Assembly (NCBI RefSeq): GCF_000403395.2
Contig: NZ_KE159678.1
Location: 10,741-42,767 of the forward strand
DNA: 32,027 bases
Origin: Anaerotruncus sp. G3(2012)
GTDB taxonomy: Bacteria > Bacillota > Clostridia > Oscillospirales > Ruminococcaceae
Reading direction: 5' to 3'
Each line of letters begins with the position of its first letter. The first letter of the stretch is position 1. A program made the position numbers and the translations under genes. Shown here one piece after another: positions 21,666-32,027 of the stretch. A model generated the notes under the pieces. That model was not told the DNA's origin, made no database searches, and saw only the letters and a program-made list of their open reading frames with translations.

Positions 21666-21863
21666 TATATGAATAAAAGCAGAGCGTTGTTGTCGTTTTG
21701 CCTTCCTTGAAGGACGCTGTATCGTTTTACAGCATTCTGCATATGTTACATCAGGGCTAAAACCGGCAGAGCGAGTTCAAAGTTGATCTTACTGCGGAAT
21801 CATCAGCCAATGGTCTGGCGGTGGCATGGGAATCCGGATGAATGCAAGGTGGTATGGGCAGCT
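21666..21863 (+). other. Long untranslated leader of the sensor kinase gene
   Basis: About 190 nt between predicted transcription start and ATG. It contains a clear hairpin, GCTGTA-TCGTTT-TACAGC (about 21714-21735), and GC-rich sequence near 21820-21850. I compared it by eye with c-di-GMP, cobalamin and THF riboswitch cores and found no match. Confidence 0.4.
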
Positions 21864-24047
21864 ATGAAGCCGAATTCAAAAGTATCGTTCGTTTTGAAAA
21901 TCGTTGCGGGTCTTTTTATCATCAGCATAACAATGGCGGTCTATATCAGCCAGTTAAACCAGATGGTTACCCATAACATGCTGAATACCATCAGCGAGCT
22001 GTCCCAACACGATAAACGGAGCATCGAAGCATTCATTGAGACAAGCTGGGATGAACTGGAAGGGATGGCGAAACGGTTTGCGTCCTATCGTTGCCAGTCC
22101 ATCCTTGAAGCGGAAACCCGTATGAATCTGGAGTGCTCTACCAGTGATTTTTCTCATATTTATCTGTTGGCGGAGGACGGGAAAGTCTATACAGACAAAT
22201 ATGTGGTCTATGATCCCGCACAGGACACCATGAACCGGCGGGTTGATCTTCTTCCATATTTTTCCAATGGAGAAGAGCGGGTTGTGGCTCGCTGGGATGA
22301 CAAGGCGGAAGAGGCCGGGATGTCAAGGGAATATGTTCTGTACGGGATTGGTCTGGACAACTTTGAGGTCGACGGAATCAAGATGCGCGCTCTGATCGGC
22401 CTGAGCGATATCAATACCATCCAGCGCCATATCATTCTGGACAGCTTTCTGAAAGACGGTGTCCGTCGCGGCTATTGTACGGTGGTCAGCACATCGGGGG
22501 ACTATGTTATTGGCATCCAAAAGACCCTTTATCTGAATGAAGCGGATAATTTTTATAATATACTGTCTGCGGGCACACATGCAGACCTGAGCAATGAACA
22601 GGTTGCCCAAAAGATGCAGAATTCCGAAACGTTCAGTTTCCATTATACGGATGTCAACGGGGTCAGGAAGCTGCTTTATTTCACCCCTTTTGAAGATAAC
22701 ATCGACTGGTATTTCATGATGGTTGTGGAAAACAGGGCCTTTACGGAAAGAAGCCAGGCGTTTGCCATTCTCAGCGTTGTCATGCTGGCGGTTGTCATGC
22801 TGGTGGCAACGCTTTTGCTGCTGGCGCTGACCGCATCCCATTACAGGGCGGTTCAGGCAGTTGCACGAGCAAAATCCCAGAGCGAGTTCCTTTCCAACAT
22901 GAGCCATGAGATCCGTACGCCGCTCAACGGATTGATCGGTCTGAACCATCTGATGATGAGCCGCATCGGCGACCCGATCCAGGAGGAGCAGGTCAAGGAC
23001 TGGCTGCGCAAATCCCACAGCACCGCGAACTATCTGCTTTCGCTGGTCAACGATGTGTTGGACATGTCCAAGCTGCAGGCCGGCAAGGTTGACCTTATCA
23101 ACGAACCGCTCCTGGTGGAAATGCTGGTCGATGCGATCTGGTCGATGCAGCGGGACAATATCGAGAGCCGCGGCGTTCAGTTTATCGTCGAGCAGGAGGT
23201 TCTGGAGCCTTGTGTCATGGGGGACAGCACCCGGATCAAACAGGTCCTGATGAATATTGTGGGGAATGCCGCTAAATTTACTCCAAAGGGCGGCTCCATT
23301 ACGCTTTCGGTCAGCCAGGAAAAAACGGATGAAACGCATGTGACCACAATCTATCGCTGTCAGGACACGGGCCTTGGGATGAGCAGGGAGTTTATCGACA
23401 AGATTTTTGATGCGTTCAGCCAGGAGCGCAACAAGACTTCCGACAGCGTGAAGGGGACCGGGCTTGGCATGGCTATCAGCAAGCTGCTGGTGGATGCAAT
23501 GGGCGGGGATATCCGCGTGGAAAGCGAACTGAATGTAGGGACCGTTTTCACCGTTTCGCTTCCATCCGAGATTGCAGAGTATACAGACCCGCACGTCGAT
23601 GAGGCGGCGGCCGACGAGCACGCCGTATATCCCGGCAAACCGGTAAAAATCCTGATGGCGGAGGATAACGAGCTGAACGCTGAAATCCTGATGGAGATTC
23701 TGTCGGACGAAGGATTCGAAGTGGTTCATGCCGAAAATGGGCAGGAAGCTGTACAGCGGTTTGCAGATTCCGAGACAGGGGAATTTGACATTATTCTGAT
23801 GGATATGCAGATGCCGGTTCTGGACGGTTGTTCAGCCGCCATGGAGATCCGCAGTTTGAACAGGCCGGATGCCAAGACGGTTGTTATATTTGCCTGTACC
23901 GCGAACACCTTTAAGGAGGACCGGGATCGGGCTGTTGAAAGCGGGATGAACGACTTCCTTGCCAAACCCATTGATGTCAGCGTTCTGTTGAAAAAGCTGA
24001 GTGCAGGGAGCGCGGGCATTCCCTCACATGTTGGTTCCAAAATCTGA
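21864..24047 (+). CDS. Hybrid sensor histidine kinase with receiver domain
   Basis: A 727-residue membrane sensor. Membrane helices at about 11-30 and 300-323 enclose an extracellular sensor domain of about 270 residues, probably a Cache-type fold. The cytoplasmic part has HisKA with SEFLSNMSHEIRTPLNGLIG (phospho-accepting His348), an HATPase with QVLMNIVGNAAKFTP, DTGLGM and GTGLGMAIS, and a C-terminal receiver domain with AEDNELNAEILMEIL and Asp647 in ILMDMQMPVLDG. No output domain or partner regulator is next to it, so the phosphate must pass to a regulator elsewhere. AAGGTGG is 11 bp from ATG 21864; upstream in-frame starts lack ribosome sites. A solute-binding lipoprotein gene follows 15 bp later. 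Confidence 0.93.
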   Translation: MKPNSKVSFVLKIVAGLFIISITMAVYISQLNQMVTHNMLNTISELSQHDKRSIEAFIETSWDELEGMAKRFASYRCQSILEAETRMNLECSTSDFSHIYLLAEDGKVYTDKYVVYDPAQDTMNRRVDLLPYFSNGEERVVARWDDKAEEAGMSREYVLYGIGLDNFEVDGIKMRALIGLSDINTIQRHIILDSFLKDGVRRGYCTVVSTSGDYVIGIQKTLYLNEADNFYNILSAGTHADLSNEQVAQKMQNSETFSFHYTDVNGVRKLLYFTPFEDNIDWYFMMVVENRAFTERSQAFAILSVVMLAVVMLVATLLLLALTASHYRAVQAVARAKSQSEFLSNMSHEIRTPLNGLIGLNHLMMSRIGDPIQEEQVKDWLRKSHSTANYLLSLVNDVLDMSKLQAGKVDLINEPLLVEMLVDAIWSMQRDNIESRGVQFIVEQEVLEPCVMGDSTRIKQVLMNIVGNAAKFTPKGGSITLSVSQEKTDETHVTTIYRCQDTGLGMSREFIDKIFDAFSQERNKTSDSVKGTGLGMAISKLLVDAMGGDIRVESELNVGTVFTVSLPSEIAEYTDPHVDEAAADEHAVYPGKPVKILMAEDNELNAEILMEILSDEGFEVVHAENGQEAVQRFADSETGEFDIILMDMQMPVLDGCSAAMEIRSLNRPDAKTVVIFACTANTFKEDRDRAVESGMNDFLAKPIDVSVLLKKLSAGSAGIPSHVGSKI

Positions 24048-24062
24048 TGGGAGGCGTCTGGA

Positions 24063-25409
24063 ATGAGAGAGTTGCGGAGGGTCATCGTCCTTTTTGCGGC
24101 AGCAGTCTGCCTGCTGTCCGGGTGCGGGGCCGGCGTGCGGCCTGAAGGGGCATCTGGACAGGGAAAGCAGGATGTGACCATCATTCTGAAGGCACCCGCT
24201 CAGGAGATGAACTGCGTCAGCAACCCGGAGATTACCAATACACAGGCGTTTCTGGAACGGGTCGGTCAGGCGTTTGCCGCGCAGTATGAGGATGCCAATG
24301 TGACGATCGACGTGAAGATGTTCGCTCTTGCTGATGAGGTTTCAGCGATCACCGAAACCTTCGACACCGAGGACGCGCCGGATATTCTGTATGAAGGTTA
24401 TTTCAATATGGCGGGTTATATCCATACCGGGCGGGTGGTTCCGCTGGATGACATGATTACCGATGCCATCCGGGCCGACATTTACGATTCGGCCTGGACC
24501 ATCAGCATGACCAACGGGAACACCTATATGATGCCGTTTCTGACGATGCAGAACATCCTGATCTACAATAAGGCATATTTTCGTTCCTGCGGATTGGATT
24601 CCTATTGCGGAGAGGGGACGGAAATCCAGAACTGGACGATGGACGAGTGGACCGAGATTCTGGATACGCTCGCCGCGAACCTGCCCGAGGACGTCCACCC
24701 GCTTGCGATGTACGGAAAAAACAACCAGGGGGATACCCATATCATGTCCTATCTCCGCGCATTTGGCAGCGAAATTTTTGATGCCGACGGGAATTTTGAT
24801 CTGGAATCCCCCGAAGCGGTTCAGGCTTTGACATGGCTTCAGAGCGGGGTGGAACGCGGCTGGTATCCTCCGCATCCGGAAAATCTGGAGATGAAGGATT
24901 GCAGCGAGCTGTTTTCGACCAAAAAGCTGGTATTGTATAACTTTAATGGTGCAAACAAAAGCCTCTACGATGATCTGAGCAATTATGGTTTTGTCAACTA
25001 TCCGGGCGATGTGGCCACCTCTTTCCCCAATGGGTTTGAGATATTCGACAATGGTGACGACGCCAAAATCCGGATCGCCAAGGCGTTTCTTCGCTATCTT
25101 TATGAAACACCCGAGTGGTTGGAGCTTTCTGCGGGGAACATTCCCATGAGCAAGACCGTGTCGAAAAAATATGCGGGCCAGATCACCATGCTGAGCGATT
25201 TTGCCGCCAATTCGAGCCATGTGGTGGATTTCATGAACAACAGCCCGAACTGGCAGGGGTCCAGCGATTCGGTCCGCAGCGTGTTCTATCCCCATATTGC
25301 CGACCTGCTGGCCGGCCGGGTAACACCGGAGGAATGTGCAGCCGGGCTGAATGCGGACTGTAATGCAGCTCTTGCGTCGGGGCGGGAACGGAGTGTGCTC
25401 CATCAGTAG
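24063..25409 (+). CDS. Extracellular solute-binding lipoprotein (family 1)
   Basis: A 448-residue exported lipoprotein of the ABC-type family 1 solute-binding fold, normally sugars or oligosaccharides. A signal peptide ends in lipobox LLSGC with lipidated Cys21. Typical positions follow: an early NTQAFLERVGQAFAAQYED helix, EDAPDILYEGYFNMAGYI, MPFLTMQNILIYNKAYF and WTMDEWTEILDTL. It lies 15 bp after the hybrid kinase with GGGAGG site, and no ABC permease or ATPase gene is near. It is therefore more likely an extracytoplasmic co-sensor for that kinase, as ChvE is for VirA, than a transport subunit. The ligand cannot be predicted. Confidence 0.9.
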   Translation: MRELRRVIVLFAAAVCLLSGCGAGVRPEGASGQGKQDVTIILKAPAQEMNCVSNPEITNTQAFLERVGQAFAAQYEDANVTIDVKMFALADEVSAITETFDTEDAPDILYEGYFNMAGYIHTGRVVPLDDMITDAIRADIYDSAWTISMTNGNTYMMPFLTMQNILIYNKAYFRSCGLDSYCGEGTEIQNWTMDEWTEILDTLAANLPEDVHPLAMYGKNNQGDTHIMSYLRAFGSEIFDADGNFDLESPEAVQALTWLQSGVERGWYPPHPENLEMKDCSELFSTKKLVLYNFNGANKSLYDDLSNYGFVNYPGDVATSFPNGFEIFDNGDDAKIRIAKAFLRYLYETPEWLELSAGNIPMSKTVSKKYAGQITMLSDFAANSSHVVDFMNNSPNWQGSSDSVRSVFYPHIADLLAGRVTPEECAAGLNADCNAALASGRERSVLHQ

Positions 25410-26355: not shown

Positions 26356-27613
26356 TTCCGCTCCGCGGGGGATTCTGCGGAAGCTGGACAGTGAAACAGG
26401 TACCGCCCTGCGCGGCGCTGCTTTCGACCGAAATCCTGCCGCAATGGGACTGCACAATCGTCTGCGCGATCGCCAGCCCCAACCCGTAGCCGCCCCGTTC
26501 CCGCGCCCGGGAAGGGTCAGCGCGGTAGAACCGTTCGAACAGGTGGGGCAGCGTATCCGCCGGGATCTGGCTGCCGGTGTTGTGTACCGAAAGCAGAAGC
26601 TGCTCCCCTGTGCGCCGCAGGGTGACGGTAACCGTCCCGCGCTTTCCGGCATATTTGCAGGCATTGTCAATCAGGATGGCGGTAAGCTGGCGGATCTGTC
26701 CCTCGTGTCCGGTGAGCCAGAGGTCTGGTTCGATCTCGCTTTGCAGGTCCACCCCCTGCTCGAACGCCAGTGCTTCAAACGGAAGCAGTGCGCTCCAGAC
26801 CGCATCGCTCAGGCTGAACCGGGAAAAGGCCAGCCTGTTTTTGGCGCCATCCGCCCGGGCCAGGAACAGCAGATCGTCCACCAGTTGTTTCATCCGCCGG
26901 GCTTCGGCCTGTGTATTTTCGACCCATTTGATCTCCGCCGGGCCGATCTGGTCCTGTGCCGAAAGCAGGATTCCCATATTCGCCAGAATCACGGTGAGCG
27001 GGGTTTTCAGTTCATGGGAAGCGTCGGCGACAAACTGCTGCTGCTGTTGCCATGCGCGCTCGGCCGGACGCAGTGCCCATCGTGCCAGATAAACGCTGAT
27101 TGCGAAAAAGGCCCCGAGCGCGCAGATACCCACTACCAGCGAGGTCAGCAGCAGATTGAGCATCGACTGCCGTTCACTGCCAGTGTCTGCGAATGCGATC
27201 TGCGTTCCGTCCGGGGTTTCTGCGATGAGATAGCGCAGCCCATAGGAGGGCAGACGCCCCGATCGCGCACCGTCGGCCTGCGCTGCATCAACCAGTTCGG
27301 CAACCGCATCCGGATCGACGGTGACATTTTTTCCCCGGACCGATGCGGCCGAGCCATCTCCAGCCAGCTCGACGACAAAAACCGGCATCATCGGCATTGG
27401 TTTGCCCTTCGAACGCCGCTCCTTTCTACCGATCTCAAGATGCGGGAACTTCTCGTCAAACGGGTAACTGACAGCCTGCCGCATGGCATTCAGGCTGTCC
27501 TCACGCAGGCGGTGATGGGTGGAAAGGCAGACTGCGCAGAATACCACCAACAGGACAGCCCCTACCAGCATCATATTGATCAAGATGAATTTTTTGCGCA
27601 GTTTATGGATCAT
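26324..27613 (-). CDS. Sensor histidine kinase of an OmpR-type two-component system
   Basis: A 429-residue membrane kinase. Membrane helices at about 9-31 and 151-175 enclose an extracellular domain of about 115 residues with no recognised fold. HisKA has FVADASHELKTPLTVILAN with His200; the HATPase shows LIDNACKYAG (N box) and GGYGLGLAIAQTI (G2). The G1 box reads HNTGSQIP, with Asn where Asp is usual, as in other kinases of this subfamily. The start codon overlaps the regulator's stop (ATGA), so both are translated together. The 3' end overlaps the convergent AEC gene by 32 bp. The signal is unknown. Confidence 0.93.
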   Translation of the reverse strand: MIHKLRKKFILINMMLVGAVLLVVFCAVCLSTHHRLREDSLNAMRQAVSYPFDEKFPHLEIGRKERRSKGKPMPMMPVFVVELAGDGSAASVRGKNVTVDPDAVAELVDAAQADGARSGRLPSYGLRYLIAETPDGTQIAFADTGSERQSMLNLLLTSLVVGICALGAFFAISVYLARWALRPAERAWQQQQQFVADASHELKTPLTVILANMGILLSAQDQIGPAEIKWVENTQAEARRMKQLVDDLLFLARADGAKNRLAFSRFSLSDAVWSALLPFEALAFEQGVDLQSEIEPDLWLTGHEGQIRQLTAILIDNACKYAGKRGTVTVTLRRTGEQLLLSVHNTGSQIPADTLPHLFERFYRADPSRARERGGYGLGLAIAQTIVQSHCGRISVESSAAQGGTCFTVQLPQNPPRSGIRETTSGLGR

Positions 27614-28287
27614 AGCTGTGCGATCTCCAGTCGATACCCTACCTTGCGTACTGTGCCGATACCGACACGGGAGCCGAGGTAGGCTAATTTTTTGCGCAGA
27701 AACGAGATGTAGGCTTCCACGTTGTTGTCCTCAGCATCCGAATCGGTGCCCCAGACCCTGGTCAGCAGGTCCTCCTTCGGGACGATCCGCTTCGGGTTGG
27801 AGAGCAGGATCCGCAGGACCTCGAACTCTTTAAAGCCGAGGGTTACCGCTTTTTCCCGGCGGGAGAGGGAACGGGTCGAAAGGCCCAGGCAGAGGTCGTC
27901 AAACCGCAGCTCCTCCAACTGCACCTCGCCCTGCCGCCGGGAGAGTGCACGCACCCGGGCGAGCAGCTCTTCGGGGGAGAATGGTTTGGTCATGTAGTCG
28001 TCCGCACCGCAGTCGAGGCCGGTCACCTTGTCGGCAATCTCCTCCCGGGCGGTGAGCAGGAGCACCGGGATCGGGTTGTTTTGTGCACGCAGCGCCCGGA
28101 CCACCTCGAACCCGTTTTTGCGGGGGAGCATTACGTCGAGCACCACGACATCGTATTGACCGCTCATGGCATAGTCAAACCCATCCTGCCCATCATAAAC
28201 CGCGTCTACCCCGTATTTCTGTCCCTTCATGATCTGGCAGAGCGCATCCGCCAGCCTGCGTTCGTCCTCCACGATCAAAACCCGCAT
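27610..28287 (-). CDS. OmpR/PhoB-type response regulator
   Basis: A 225-residue transcription regulator with receiver domain (acidic Glu7/Asp8, phospho-accepting Asp51 in VVVLDVMLP, LLLTAREE and the invariant Lys in YMTKPFSPEELLARV) and C-terminal winged-helix DNA-binding domain (ending GSRVGIGTVRKVGYRLE). ATG 28287 has AGGAGGGG upstream; an in-frame codon 24 bp earlier is not supported. Head of the regulator-kinase operon, with its promoter in the 210-bp region shared with the divergent VTC gene. Regulators of this type usually bind direct repeats near their own promoter, and CTGAAAAT-like repeats lie there. Confidence 0.95.
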   Translation of the reverse strand: MRVLIVEDERRLADALCQIMKGQKYGVDAVYDGQDGFDYAMSGQYDVVVLDVMLPRKNGFEVVRALRAQNNPIPVLLLTAREEIADKVTGLDCGADDYMTKPFSPEELLARVRALSRRQGEVQLEELRFDDLCLGLSTRSLSRREKAVTLGFKEFEVLRILLSNPKRIVPKEDLLTRVWGTDSDAEDNNVEAYISFLRKKLAYLGSRVGIGTVRKVGYRLEIAQL

Positions 28288-28348
28288 GTTACCCCTCCTG
28301 CCACCTTTCAAATTTTTTTAGATGCGAAAAGCGCCTGAAAATAAGAAC

Positions 28349-28377
28349 AGTATAGCATAGAAACAGGGACGGGACAA
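28349..28377 (-). promoter_or_regulatory. Promoter of the two-component operon
   Basis: On the minus strand TTGTCC (28372-28377), 17-bp spacer, TATACT (28349-28354) with extended -10 TGC. Confidence 0.75.
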
Positions 28378-28412
28378 CCATCCTTTCCCCATGAAAAGGA
28401 TAGGACGGGAAC

Positions 28413-28452
28413 CTGAAAATAGTCTGAAACAGTTTTTTTAGACTATTTTCAG
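28413..28452. promoter_or_regulatory. Perfect 13-bp inverted repeat between divergent operons
   Basis: CTGAAAATAGTCT (28413-28425) and AGACTATTTTCAG (28440-28452) are perfect complements with a 14-nt loop. It could be an operator for a regulator or a terminator-like stem. CCTGAAAATA is repeated at 28334-28343, and ATCCTTT/AAAGGAT (about 28379-28401) forms a smaller dyad. Confidence 0.6.
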
Positions 28453-28468
28453 AAACAGACGTTAGGAT
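28439..28468 (+). promoter_or_regulatory. Weak candidate promoter of the VTC operon
   Basis: TAGACT (28439-28444), 18-bp spacer, TAGGAT (28463-28468). Each hexamer matches four of six. The -35 box lies in the 3' arm of the 13-bp inverted repeat, as expected for a regulator-dependent promoter. Confidence 0.35.
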
Positions 28469-28498
28469 AATGGCAACCACAAAAACGGAGGTGAGCGT

Positions 28499-29218
28499 AT
28501 GGCGCAGACAGTTTTTCAGCGCTATGAGAAAAAATATCTGCTTGACCGGGAACAGTATACCGCCCTGCGGGACCAGCTTTCCGGCCGGATGCGGGAGGAC
28601 CGCTATGGCAGATACACGATCTGCAACATCTACTATGATACACCCGACTATCAACTGATACGTGCTTCCCTTGAGAAGCCGGTCTATAAAGAGAAGCTGC
28701 GGCTGCGCAGCTATAGGGTGCCGGATTCCCAAAGCCCGGTCTTTCTTGAACTCAAGAAAAAGTTCGATGGGGTGGTCTATAAACGCCGGGCGGTTCTGAC
28801 ACAGGGAGAGGCGCAGAGGTTCCTTTGGAATGGGGAACGTCCGGACGGCCAGGAACAGATTCTGAATGAGATCGGCTGGGCGATGCAGTTCTATCGTCCC
28901 GAGCCGAAGGTATTCATCGGATACGATCGGACCGCCCTCTTCTCAGAGGAAGAGCCAGACCTGCGGGTCACATTCGATACCAGGCTGCGGTGGCGGAATA
29001 CTGCGCTTGACCTTTCCAAAGGGGATTGGGGGGCGCCAATCCGACGGGATGGGAAAATTCTGATGGAACTCAAGCTGCCGGGGGCAATGCCGCTTTGGAT
29101 GGCACATCTGCTGGGGGACCTGAGAATCTATCCGACCTCTTTTTCCAAATATGGCGCCTGCTATCAGCAGTACCTCTATAGGCAGCAGAGGTTGAGAGGG
29201 GGCGCTGTCTGTGCCTGA
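28499..29218 (+). CDS. VTC-domain polyphosphate polymerase-like protein
   Basis: A 239-residue soluble protein of the VTC/CYTH tunnel-fold family, whose eukaryotic member Vtc4 makes polyphosphate from ATP. The basic tunnel lining is visible: RYEKKYLL (8-15), KEKLRLRSY (64-72), ELKKKFDGVVYKRR (84-97), YDRTAL (142-147), TFDTRLRWR (158-166), metal-binding Glu190 in MELKLPGAMP and FSKYGACY (215-222). Bacterial VTC proteins often pair with a DUF4956 membrane protein, as here, but their product is little studied. GGAGGTGA precedes ATG 28499. The stop overlaps the DUF4956 start by 8 bp. A CYTH-type triphosphatase is the main alternative reading. Confidence 0.88.
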   Translation: MAQTVFQRYEKKYLLDREQYTALRDQLSGRMREDRYGRYTICNIYYDTPDYQLIRASLEKPVYKEKLRLRSYRVPDSQSPVFLELKKKFDGVVYKRRAVLTQGEAQRFLWNGERPDGQEQILNEIGWAMQFYRPEPKVFIGYDRTALFSEEEPDLRVTFDTRLRWRNTALDLSKGDWGAPIRRDGKILMELKLPGAMPLWMAHLLGDLRIYPTSFSKYGACYQQYLYRQQRLRGGAVCA

Positions 29219-29888
29219 TTTGCTCTTCCAGCCTGTTTTGCAGGCGGGGGTTACCCTTCCGGGAGTGCTGCTCTGCACATCCGCTTCCCTCCTGTTTGGG
29301 TATGCAATCGCCAGGCTGCATCTTCGGCAGGGAACCTGCTCCCGGAGCTTTGCGGTGACGCTCGCGTTCCTGCCAGCGATTGTGCAGATTGTCATTATGC
29401 TGGTCAACGGCAACATCGGCGCAGGGGTCGCGGTAGCAGGCTCGTTCAGCCTTGTGCGGTTCCGGTCGGTGCCGGGCACTGCCCGCGAGATCGGCAGCCT
29501 GTTTTTCGCAATGGCGATTGGGCTCGCCTGTGGGATGGGGTATCCCGGTTACGCGGCGCTGTTTCTGATCCTGGTGGGGTCGATGATGCTTTTGCTCAAC
29601 GCGGTTCGGTTTGGGGTGCCCTCCCATATCCGGCGGGAACTCAAAATCACGATTCCCGAGGGGTTGGATTACGAGGGCATATTTGACGACCTGTTTCAGG
29701 AATATACAGTCTATACCGAACTGGAACGGGTGCGCACCACCAATATGGGCAGTCTTTATGAGCTGTGCTATCTGGTGGAACTTCCCGGAAGCGGGATCAG
29801 CAAAGCATTTCTTGATGAACTGCGCTGCCGCAATGGAAATCTGAATATCAGCTGTGGACGGGTTTCTTCCGTTCAGGATGAATTGTAG
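29211..29888 (+). CDS. DUF4956 membrane protein
   Basis: A 225-residue protein with about four membrane segments (about 16-36, 45-66, 95-110, 113-132) and a cytosolic C-terminal domain of about 90 residues. The conserved SFSLVRFRSVPGTAREI between the second and third segments is the DUF4956 hallmark. This family co-occurs with VTC-domain proteins in many bacteria and may be a channel or anchor for the polymer; that role is inferred. GTG start at 29211, overlapping the VTC stop by 8 bp, with a GAGGGGG site. Confidence 0.9.
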   Translation: MPDLLFQPVLQAGVTLPGVLLCTSASLLFGYAIARLHLRQGTCSRSFAVTLAFLPAIVQIVIMLVNGNIGAGVAVAGSFSLVRFRSVPGTAREIGSLFFAMAIGLACGMGYPGYAALFLILVGSMMLLLNAVRFGVPSHIRRELKITIPEGLDYEGIFDDLFQEYTVYTELERVRTTNMGSLYELCYLVELPGSGISKAFLDELRCRNGNLNISCGRVSSVQDEL

Positions 29889-29904
29889 TCAGGGGGACAG
29901 TGGA

Positions 29905-31806
29905 ATGAATCAACAGAAGAAAATGGTTATTACAGCGATGCTGGCGGCGCTTGGAATGCTTGCGGGATGCAGCCAGAGTGCATCATCTGCCGCCGCTTCG
30001 GCGGGAACATCCGATGGAGTGGTGCAGATTACCCTGAATGGGGGAACGGCTTCAGTCGCCGGGACAGGCGCGTCGGTAAATGGCGCGGATGTCACGATTA
30101 CCAAAGCGGGAACCTACCGGATCGCCGGTGCACTCGATGATGGGCAGATTCTGGTTGACGCAGGCAAACAGGATGCGGTGACGCTGGTGCTGGACGGGGT
30201 AACGATCTCCTGTTCGGACAGCGCAGGCATCTACGCGAAACAGGCGGGAAACACGACCCTTCTGCTGGCGGATGGCAGCTCCAACGTTATCTCGGATGGC
30301 GCGGAATATCAATTCCCGGATGGCGGGGACGAACCTGATGCGGCAGTATTTGCCAAAGATGATCTGACAATTACCGGGACGGGAACACTGACTGTTACAG
30401 GAAACTATCACAATGGGATCGGCAGCAAGGACAACCTGTTGGTTGAGAGCGGAACCTTAACCGTCACCGCGGCGAACGATGGCCTGCGAGGGCGGGACTC
30501 GGTGACCATCTCAGATGGAACATTCGCGATTGACGCAGAGGGGGACGGGATCAAATCGAACAACGATGAGGACACACAGAAAGGATGGATTCTTCTGTCG
30601 GGAGGGAGCTACCAGATCTCCGCAGGCAATGACGGAATACAGGCAGAAACCGTACTGACCGTTACGGGGGGATCCTATGAGATTGTTACCGGGGGCGGCA
30701 GTGAGAATGCACCGGAACGTGTGGAGCAGGGATTTGGCGGCGGGTTCGGAGGGAAGCAGCCCAAACGTGAAGCGGGCGCGACACCACCCGATGGCCAGAC
30801 GCCAGGAGAAGCTCGGCCAGGCAGTGTGCCGCCTAACCGACAGGATGCTGAAGCCGTACAGACAGCTTCTGTCCAGTTTGCAGCGGATACAGAAGCGGCA
30901 CAGCCGACCAGTTCCACGACTGATTCTGAGAGCCAGAAGGGAATGAAGGCGGGAACCCTGCTCACAGTGAGCGGCGGGACATTTTCAATCGACAGTGTGG
31001 ACGATGCACTCCACTCCAACGGCAATCTGACCATATCAGGAGGGGACTTTTGTATCTCAACCGGTGACGATGGAGCCCATGCGGACGGTGCATTGGCAAT
31101 CGAAGCGGGAGACATCCGGATCGAGCGTTCCTATGAGGGATTGGAGGGAACAACGGTCGAAATCAGTGGAGGAGAGATCGTCTTAACCGCATCGGACGAC
31201 GGAGTTAACGCGGCGGGAGGCAGTGACGAAAACCTTGGTCCGGACCGCTTGACCAGCCAGAACAACTACTTTATCCGGGTGACCGGCGGGATGTTGACTG
31301 TAGACGCGGATGGAGATGGGCTAGACTCCAACGGTGGCCTCTATCTGGAAGGAGGGACGGTCCTCGTGAATGGTCCAACCAGCGGCGGGGACAGTGCGCT
31401 TGACTACGATGGAAGCTGCGAGATCAGTGGGGGACTCTTGATGGCTGCGGGCAGCGCAGGGATGATGCAGGTGCCATCCGACGGGATACAGCCGCGGTTG
31501 GCAGTCTGGTTTGACGGGGTACAGCCCGCCGGAACCCAGATTGAGCTGGCTGACGATGTAAACCAGACCGTCCTGGATGTAACGCTTGAAAAGCCGTTCG
31601 AGGTGGTGATCCTGAGTGCTCCCGGTTTGGAGGTGGGGCAAACCTGCGCGCTTCTGGTCAATGGGGAAAAAGCCACTGATCTGACGCTGACAGAGACAGT
31701 GACCTCGATTTCGAGTGATGGTTCTGCTGCTCCTACCCAGATGAGGTTTGGCAGAATGGGTATGGGAGAGGACCGTGTAGAAGGCCGAGGGAAAGCCATG
31801 CAGTAG
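29905..31806 (+). CDS. Cthe_2159-like beta-helix lipoprotein
   Basis: A 633-residue surface lipoprotein with lipobox LAGC (Cys22) and a right-handed beta-helix of many short Gly/Asp-rich turns, matching the carbohydrate-binding domain-containing Cthe_2159 family (pfam14262). Repeating acidic turns include AANDGLRG, AEGDGIKSNN, AGNDGIQAE, TGDDGAHADG and ADGDGLDSNGG, which in the known structure bind calcium. Residues about 264-345 are a Pro/Gln/Ala-rich low-complexity insert splitting the helix into two parts, and the last about 30 residues are Met/Gly/Arg-rich. ATG 29905 has AGGGGGA upstream, 16 bp after the DUF4956 stop. It is the third gene of the VTC operon; role in binding a surface polymer is inference. 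Confidence 0.88.
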   Translation: MNQQKKMVITAMLAALGMLAGCSQSASSAAASAGTSDGVVQITLNGGTASVAGTGASVNGADVTITKAGTYRIAGALDDGQILVDAGKQDAVTLVLDGVTISCSDSAGIYAKQAGNTTLLLADGSSNVISDGAEYQFPDGGDEPDAAVFAKDDLTITGTGTLTVTGNYHNGIGSKDNLLVESGTLTVTAANDGLRGRDSVTISDGTFAIDAEGDGIKSNNDEDTQKGWILLSGGSYQISAGNDGIQAETVLTVTGGSYEIVTGGGSENAPERVEQGFGGGFGGKQPKREAGATPPDGQTPGEARPGSVPPNRQDAEAVQTASVQFAADTEAAQPTSSTTDSESQKGMKAGTLLTVSGGTFSIDSVDDALHSNGNLTISGGDFCISTGDDGAHADGALAIEAGDIRIERSYEGLEGTTVEISGGEIVLTASDDGVNAAGGSDENLGPDRLTSQNNYFIRVTGGMLTVDADGDGLDSNGGLYLEGGTVLVNGPTSGGDSALDYDGSCEISGGLLMAAGSAGMMQVPSDGIQPRLAVWFDGVQPAGTQIELADDVNQTVLDVTLEKPFEVVILSAPGLEVGQTCALLVNGEKATDLTLTETVTSISSDGSAAPTQMRFGRMGMGEDRVEGRGKAMQ

Positions 31807-31877: not shown

Positions 31878-32027
31878 TCATAAGCGTTTAAGCAAGGTAT
31901 GGAAATGAGAAATTTTGACGATAGTCTCAGCAGATGAGACGGATATCTCATAATCTTTACTGAGACGTCTGGAATGATTGAGCCAGGAGAGGGTGCGTTC
32001 AACTATCCAGCGCCAAGGGAGTCTTTC
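31878..32027 (-). CDS. IS5-type transposase, C-terminal part (cut by window edge)
   Basis: The last 49 codons of a transposase that continues beyond the right edge. [20 protein letters not shown] is the C-terminal DDE-region motif of IS5-family (Transposase_11/DDE_Tnp_1) proteins; the Glu in VERT is probably the third catalytic acid. The rest ends in [15 protein letters not shown] and a TGA at 31878-31880. It is convergent with the VTC operon. Whether the gene is intact cannot be told. Confidence 0.8.

Follow-up and report, generated by a model that had tools for sequence, protein, structure and literature searches.

A candidate CiaR-like operator at a recurrent VTC-DUF4956 gene module in Anaerotruncus and related Clostridia

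We analyzed a 32,027-nucleotide stretch of the Anaerotruncus sp. G3(2012) genome (contig NZ_KE159678.1; hereafter the window), in which genes for a VTC-domain protein, a DUF4956 membrane protein and a Cthe_2159-family lipoprotein lie divergent from genes for an OmpR-type response regulator and a sensor histidine kinase. The region between the two gene sets contains two back-to-back direct repeats that resemble the binding site of streptococcal CiaR, and boxes of this type recur upstream of VTC genes in the class. This candidate CiaR-like control, predicted from sequence, is the firmer and newer half of our finding. The other half concerns function. With slightly less than even confidence, we read the five genes as one unit for the regulated synthesis, and probably the export, of polyphosphate together with a surface partner.

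CiaR-like boxes in the divergent promoter region

The intergenic region carries a 17-nt inverted repeat (28413-28452) that was absent from the initial annotation. It resolves into two divergent CiaR-like boxes: each strand reads as a direct repeat of the TTTMAG-N5-TTTMAG type with an 11-bp period, and the boxes stand back to back, each with a -10-like hexamer (TAGGAT or TATCCT) 10 nt on (Table 1). The CiaR site is given as TTTAAG-N5-TTTAAG, later as NTTAAG-N5-TTTAAG, with ten bases from the site to the -10 and a fourth half-site position that is "slightly variable" (PMC3091779, available excerpt). The window half-sites, TTTTAG and TTTCAG, each differ from TTTAAG by one change at this fourth position, and many relatives carry TTTAAG. 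Three same-genus loci (L051, L053 and L065) have the identical repeat, and farther relatives have TTTAAG-N5-TTTAAG. The recognition helix reads NVEAYISFLRKKL in the window regulator, NHVEVYISFLRKKL in several relatives and VVEVYVSKVRKKL in streptococcal CiaR (PMC3091779, same excerpt).

We sampled 196 genomes of the class and examined 132 VTC loci, consisting of 18 from relatives, 113 from the class and the window itself; four partial VTC matches (G104:C61, G101:C10, G029:C36 and G154:C34) were left out. Genes were called with a simple script that takes the longest open reading frame (ORF) and places some starts too far upstream. The loci share descent, so that counts are not independent and p values are nominal throughout. 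The box pattern TTTMAG-N5-TTTMAG was defined on the 16 loci with a divergent regulator, which are themselves among the class-set counts. With up to one mismatch, 12 of these 16 have the box against 0.14 expected from shuffles, and we consider 11 credible, since the L143 box, which runs into the called start, is probably a chance match. The corresponding counts are 2/11 where the regulator is upstream and co-directional (0.06 expected) and 4/14 where it is downstream (0.13 expected). Loci without an adjacent regulator have the box in 13/83 cases, compared to 0.72 expected from shuffles.

We compared gene classes within the same loci, limited to genes whose upstream gap measured 80 bases or more. 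A box with at most one mismatch precedes 28/80 VTC genes and 4/496 non-module genes (p 2e-22), and an exact box precedes 17/80 and 0/496, respectively (p 5e-16). Other module genes, such as that of the regulator, are preceded by the box in 12/80 cases, seven of them exact. A half-site spacing of 5 was found in 29/131 loci, compared to at most 4 for spacings of 1-4 and 6-11. A second set, here called the named loci and nearly all clostridial, comprises the 80 top-ranking among at least 543 matches to an 18-sequence VTC profile; it is biased to the VTC clade of the window, was collected after the class set and may share species with it. Here the VTC upstream region contains the box in 25/80 cases, 17 of them exact, with other spacings reaching at most 6, and this region alone gave the same result as the better of the two upstream regions. 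The sequence TAnnnT follows the box at a distance of exactly 10 nt in 23/30 boxed promoters of the class set and in 17/25 of the named set, the next best offset accounting for 6/30 and 8/25.

Table 1 Features of the five-gene locus, in window positions
Feature	Position	Strand	Basis and remarks
Sensor histidine kinase, 429 aa	26324-27613	-	HisKA 1.8e-14, HATPase_c 2e-27
OmpR-type response regulator	27610-28287	-	Response_reg, Trans_reg_C; recognition-helix region NVEAYISFLRKKL
-10-like TATCCT	28397-28402	-	10 nt past the regulator-facing box
CiaR-like box TTTCAG-ACTAT-TTTCAG, facing the regulator gene	28413-28429	-	Repeat and pattern search
CiaR-like box TTTTAG-ACTAT-TTTCAG, facing VTC	28436-28452	+	One mismatch to TTTMAG-N5-TTTMAG
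-10-like TAGGAT	28463-28468	+	10 nt past the VTC-facing box
VTC-domain protein, 239 aa	28499-29218	+	PF09359, E 1.2e-41; triphosphate-tunnel fold
DUF4956 membrane protein, 225 aa	29211-29888	+	PF16316, E 3.8e-13; GTG start
Cthe_2159-family lipoprotein, 633 aa	29905-31806	+	PF14262, E 4.5e-97

Linkage to two-component systems

A regulator gene lies within 1 kb upstream of VTC in 17/124 testable loci, compared to 10/376 locus-bins 5-9 kb upstream (Fisher p 1.7e-5; 4/104, 1/102, 3/100 and 2/70 in the single bins). Ten of the 16 divergent regulators have a recognition helix of the window type (VE[AV]Y..FLRKK), five carry a second kind of helix (..WVYISYLRKKL or similar), and the remaining one has a different helix. 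The co-directional upstream and the downstream regulators mostly have other helices, e.g. DRTLDTHxKLLRKSL. VTC is thus linked to two-component systems of several kinds. Where the partner gene is upstream of VTC, as in L085, L086, L090 and L093, a regulator of the first helix type stands beyond the partner, still divergent. The second regulator type, with helices like INVVWVYISYLRKKL, was seen in L052, L062, L070, L075 and L081 and among the named loci (e.g. L201, L246 and L253), and some loci of this type have boxes like TTTAAAGTNCATTTTAAG, again with an 11-bp period. L201 belongs to Mobilisporobacter senegalensis DSM 26537, a cultured relative that has the regulator, kinase, VTC, DUF4956 and Cthe_2159 genes together with a box.

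A search of the window regulator against the 196 genomes led us to reject a regulator type exclusive to VTC loci. High matches were found on contigs other than that of VTC (G097, G126, G071 and G098) and in genomes without a VTC match (G167, G185 and G039). For two box-bearing VTC promoters, L098 in G215 and L089 in G126, the best-matching regulator is on a different contig, which fits control in trans. The initial annotation had described the two-component system as dedicated to the module. The linkage is indeed recurrent, and the system probably controls the module; "dedicated" is at best true of the source genome, given the several system types and the close relatives of the regulator away from VTC. 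Against NCBIfam, each of the 25 matches shown for the window regulator fell below its cut-off. We aligned the kinase with nine other divergently linked kinases; by eye, its N-terminal region (approximately residues 1-180) apparently contains two membrane helices flanking an extracytoplasmic part.

A recurrent module with an interchangeable third gene

The VTC and DUF4956 genes of the window overlap by 8 bp, and a 16-bp gap separates DUF4956 from the Cthe_2159 gene. The tightly packed cassette, divergent from the regulator and kinase genes, was correctly placed by the initial annotation. Profile matches were found in 97 (VTC), 94 (DUF4956), 74 (Cthe_2159) and 70 (CotH) of the 196 genomes; the Cthe_2159 and CotH calls rely on profiles built in this analysis, which distant members may escape. 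DUF4956 adjoins VTC in 125 of the 132 loci, and the seven exceptions include contig ends and partial genes. VTC-DUF4956 with an exported third gene is thus a recurrent unit and not a rare association. The proposed Cthe_2159 partner, however, is not fixed: 55 loci have CotH as the third gene, 39 have Cthe_2159 and 38 have neither. Of these 38, several are cut by a contig edge, and 22 have enough flank on both sides for both genes to be counted as absent.

The possibility of a single fixed partner was ruled out by at least nine changes between Cthe_2159 and CotH over 93 labelled loci on a VTC tree (a quick build with 47/126 forks drawn open). In 200 label shuffles, the minimum number of changes was 22 and the mean 30. 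Since the observed number is far below the shuffled ones, the partners are swapped yet follow descent. Of the named loci (the top 80 among at least 543 matches), 75 contain DUF4956 and 47 contain Cthe_2159, three of these together with CotH; 33 have neither third gene. The regulator is divergent in 14. When the neighboring genes of the class set were clustered, the commonest families after VTC and DUF4956 were the regulator (46 loci, not all near), the kinase (38), Cthe_2159 (38) and CotH, which is spread over several clusters. A lipobox-like pattern is present at the N-terminus of 27/38 Cthe_2159 and 10/56 CotH proteins, compared to 120/1173 other ORFs longer than 250 residues. A loose hydrophobic N-terminus pattern matches 36/38 and 55/56, respectively, but as it also matches 628/1173 of the other ORFs, it is weak evidence.

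Some loci show further features. Eleven CotH-type loci (L054, L055, L121, L124, L130, L133, L140, L144, L148, L153 and L171) share a downstream gene cluster. Its gene families, present in 9-11 loci, all of CotH type, are represented by a HEAT-repeat protein, a family-2 glycosyltransferase and a protein whose match to glycosidases is weak. With GGDEF-EAL in some loci, this cluster resembles the published Pel-linked arrangement. A gene with a metallo-beta-lactamase fold lies immediately upstream of VTC on the same strand in L087, L088, L105, L107 and L109. In the same-genus relatives L065 and L066, the VTC frame is split or short.

The VTC protein resembles yeast polyphosphate polymerases

The VTC protein was modeled from a 42-sequence alignment with a predicted local distance difference test (pLDDT) score of 92.7. 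Foldseek placed yeast VTC subunits at all of ranks 1-13, the best being Vtc4 (3g3r; TM-score approximately 0.67 by query length), and profile comparison to Vtc4 gave an E value of 2.2e-21. Residues R8, K12, R68, R70, E84, K86, K95, R144, R156, D160, E190 and K192 are kept in 126-129 of 129 proteins. In Vtc4, R264, R266 and E426 are named in the available part of PMC9911596 and K458 in that of PMC4641920; E190 and K217 of the window protein are probably equivalent to E426 and K458, the HMMER alignment ending short of both. With this ranking and the tunnel residues kept, the earlier placement of the protein nearest to polyphosphate polymerases is supported. Only PF09359 was matched in the 239 residues, with no match to an SPX domain. 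Taken together, the predicted fold and the residues favor, but do not prove, a polymerase.

The source genome has one VTC match, one DUF4956, one Cthe_2159 gene (two stretches in one frame) and one PPK1, and a profile search found no CotH match in it. The presence of PPK1 rules out VTC as the sole polyphosphate maker of this genome. VTC and PPK1 are found together in 37 of the 196 genomes, compared to 31.7 expected, indicating that they are not replacements for each other.

The membrane protein and the lipoprotein

The DUF4956 protein scores 50 bits against PF16316, above the cut-off of 30.6. Its model (62-sequence alignment, pLDDT 89.9) contains five long helices, of which residues 61-90 are less certain, followed by a ferredoxin-like C-terminal domain, and the top entries of the fold search cover mainly this ferredoxin-like part. 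Two arginines are near-invariant, R83 in 120/122 and R85 in 122/122 proteins; they are located where the third helix ends and in the loop that follows, in or near the membrane part. For the streptococcal DUF4956 homologue, four membrane segments, a membrane part of the MgtC type and an ACT domain are reported (PMC12345266, available excerpt).

As a protein of the Cthe_2159 type, the window lipoprotein may bind calcium. It scores 324.9 bits against PF14262, above the cut-off of 25.8, and has the lipobox LAGC (Cys22, encoded at 29959-29970). It matches the Clostridium thermocellum structures 4peu and 4phb over residues 5-266 (E 5.4e-50), and it also has a low-complexity insert at approximately residues 270-345 and a second matching stretch.

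Other features of the window

At 31891-32027 on the minus strand, we noted what looks by eye like the C-terminal part of an IS5-type transposase, so that a mobile element may abut the 3' side of the operon. On the plus strand, the region 21783-25409 encodes a hybrid sensor kinase (with a receiver and no output domain), an SBP_bac_1 solute-binding protein and a Mem_trans-family transporter; the kinase and the binding protein may be a sensing pair. The left end of the window contains flavin mononucleotide (514-633) and S-adenosylmethionine (1379-1473) riboswitches.

Discussion

In the mechanism that we propose, a CiaRH-like two-component system would sense a signal at the cell envelope. Once phosphorylated, the regulator would bind both back-to-back boxes and switch on the VTC-DUF4956-lipoprotein operon as well as its own gene, both promoters having the CiaR spacing of a box, 10 nt and a -10. 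On the inner side of the membrane, the VTC protein would use a nucleoside triphosphate to make polyphosphate. DUF4956 would dock the VTC protein and lead the anionic chain past the two conserved arginines, either into the membrane or across it. Outside, the lipidated Cthe_2159 protein would hold or use the product, with CotH in the same place in many relatives. A more specific proposal, which we regard as unlikely in its entirety, is that VTC-DUF4956 would be a polyphosphate synthase-exporter under envelope control of the CiaR type, with the interchangeable third gene pointing to the use of the polymer once outside: CotH, as an extracytoplasmic kinase, would take its phosphate from exported polyphosphate, adenosine triphosphate (ATP) being lacking there, or the Cthe_2159 beta-helix would hold polyphosphate at the surface via bound cations.

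The main alternative, which we consider possible but doubtful, is a role in adhesion or exopolysaccharide display. The VTC-DUF4956 pair would then tune the secretion or retention of a polysaccharide anchored by Cthe_2159 or CotH, and the phosphate polymer would be a minor regulator or not exported. This agrees with the CotH-polymerase-DUF4956 genes flanking Pel operons (PMC7112168, in part), with the reported binding of cellulose and polygalacturonic acid by Cthe_2159 (PMC6712302, in part) and with Streptococcus intermedius, in which deletion of DUF4956 or CotH cuts aggregation, an effect of the polymerase being unreported in the available part of PMC12345266. Moreover, of the 11/132 loci with the downstream cluster, all of CotH type, nine include a gene family represented by a family-2 glycosyltransferase and six one represented by a protein with GGDEF and EAL domains. 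Yet no polysaccharide-type family occurs in more than these 11/132 loci, as judged from neighbors that were clustered and not individually annotated, and in the 22 well-flanked loci VTC is beside neither Cthe_2159 nor CotH. The genes scanned upstream of the window operon are not polysaccharide genes either, which speaks for the upstream side alone, as the window ends 3' of the operon.

In an improbable alternative, the VTC protein would signal at the membrane as a triphosphatase or a polyphosphatase of short chains, with DUF4956 as a sensor or regulator whose ACT-like domain binds a ligand. The ferredoxin-like C-terminal domain of DUF4956 fits this view, its counterpart in the streptococcal homologue being called ACT (PMC12345266, in part). 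The four basic residues that guide the chain out of Vtc4 are glutamates in a plant tripolyphosphatase and acidic in several other tunnel enzymes, according to the available part of PMC4641920, and E10 of the VTC protein (127/129) retains one of these four acidic positions: it aligns with Glu-4 of the tripolyphosphatase patch and is absent from Vtc4. However, two other patch positions are basic as in Vtc4, at R8 (aligned) and probably at K192 (by inference), the fourth is presumably K95, and in the fold search every hydrolase ranks below the VTC subunits. Finally, it is highly improbable that the two-component system controls something else and merely neighbors the operon: 90/132 VTC loci have no regulator in the counted positions and related regulators occur elsewhere, but the linkage recurs with the regulator divergent, upstream and co-directional, or downstream, and the box precedes VTC in 13/83 loci without an adjacent regulator, where 0.72 are expected.

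Several observations weigh against regulated polyphosphate synthesis and export by this module. At up to one mismatch, 52/80 VTC promoters are without the box. In the source genome, TTTYAG-N5-TTTYAG occurs seven times, as does the reversed control; five matches lie elsewhere in the genome, one of them with a plausible -10. The targets of the regulator in this genome may be mainly the VTC locus, on a low-power count that covered TTTYAG half-sites only and left TTTAAG unsearched. The recognition helix is of another kind in several VTC-linked regulators, and relatives of the window regulator lie away from VTC. E10 points toward the hydrolytic enzymes, and PPK1 makes VTC dispensable for polyphosphate as such. 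The DUF4956 protein matched neither the VTC channel nor any solved membrane fold, by profile or by fold search at E 0.001, so that export is argued by analogy only. The S. intermedius polymerase mutant SIR_1593 still aggregated and made Pel, with no change reported in the available part of PMC12345266, which speaks against the polymer being central in the Pel setting.

VTC-domain genes are common in the class, and a switch site resembling the streptococcal envelope-control site suggests a plausible regulator for an otherwise unexplained bacterial polymer machine. The conserved predicted operator offers a handle on when the module switches on, and its function is testable in culturable anaerobes. 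If polyphosphate export were true, bacteria would have in this module a counterpart of the yeast vacuolar machine, and it could account for the phosphate source of exported CotH-type kinases.

Comparison with known systems

We found no literature match for "VTC domain" jointly with "DUF4956", and no paper in the open-licence literature on the product of any bacterial VTC-domain protein. The words polyphosphate, VTC and DUF4956 are absent from the CiaR papers PMC8317062 and PMC3091779 and from the Cthe_2159 paper PMC6712302. CiaR-like control does not appear in the literature examined on the VTC-DUF4956 module, where no search paired VTC or DUF4956 with CiaR; of the papers examined, the two Pel papers alone deal with the module, in its CotH version, and no search paired VTC with Cthe_2159.

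The module resembles the yeast VTC complex in its tunnel fold, its tunnel residues and the pairing of the VTC gene with that of a membrane protein. It differs in having no SPX domain, in consisting of short separate proteins and in a membrane partner without detectable similarity. From Cthe_2159 of C. thermocellum (4peu and 4phb), a member of the same family, the window protein differs in its 633 residues with a low-complexity insert and a second matching stretch.

With the CotH-polymerase-DUF4956 accessory genes of Gram-positive Pel operons, the module shares the VTC and DUF4956 pair and an exported third protein; in the window, Cthe_2159 takes the place of CotH and a CiaR-like system is attached. 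These genes lie beside Pel operons in streptococci and clostridia, and in bifidobacteria together with a diguanylate cyclase/phosphodiesterase gene (PMC7112168, in part). In S. intermedius, the DUF4956 mutant (SIR_1592) made more and the CotH mutant (SIR_1594) less Pel, with aggregation down in both, and according to the available part of PMC12345266, no three-gene synteny was detected elsewhere than at the Pel locus. In our set, CotH is beside VTC in 55/132 loci, 44 of which are without the recurrent downstream cluster, the Pel genes themselves not having been searched for.

The streptococcal CiaRH system shares with the window the direct repeat with N5, the 10 nt to the -10 and a box that also precedes the regulator gene, and the recognition helices may be similar. 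The differences are the half-sites (TTTCAG and TTTTAG in the window, TTTAAG in streptococci) and the link to VTC, the comparison covering sites and helices and not full-length CiaR and CiaH. The module is thus a variant of a known gene cluster, since CotH-polymerase-DUF4956 beside Pel has already been published, and the operator is what is new here.

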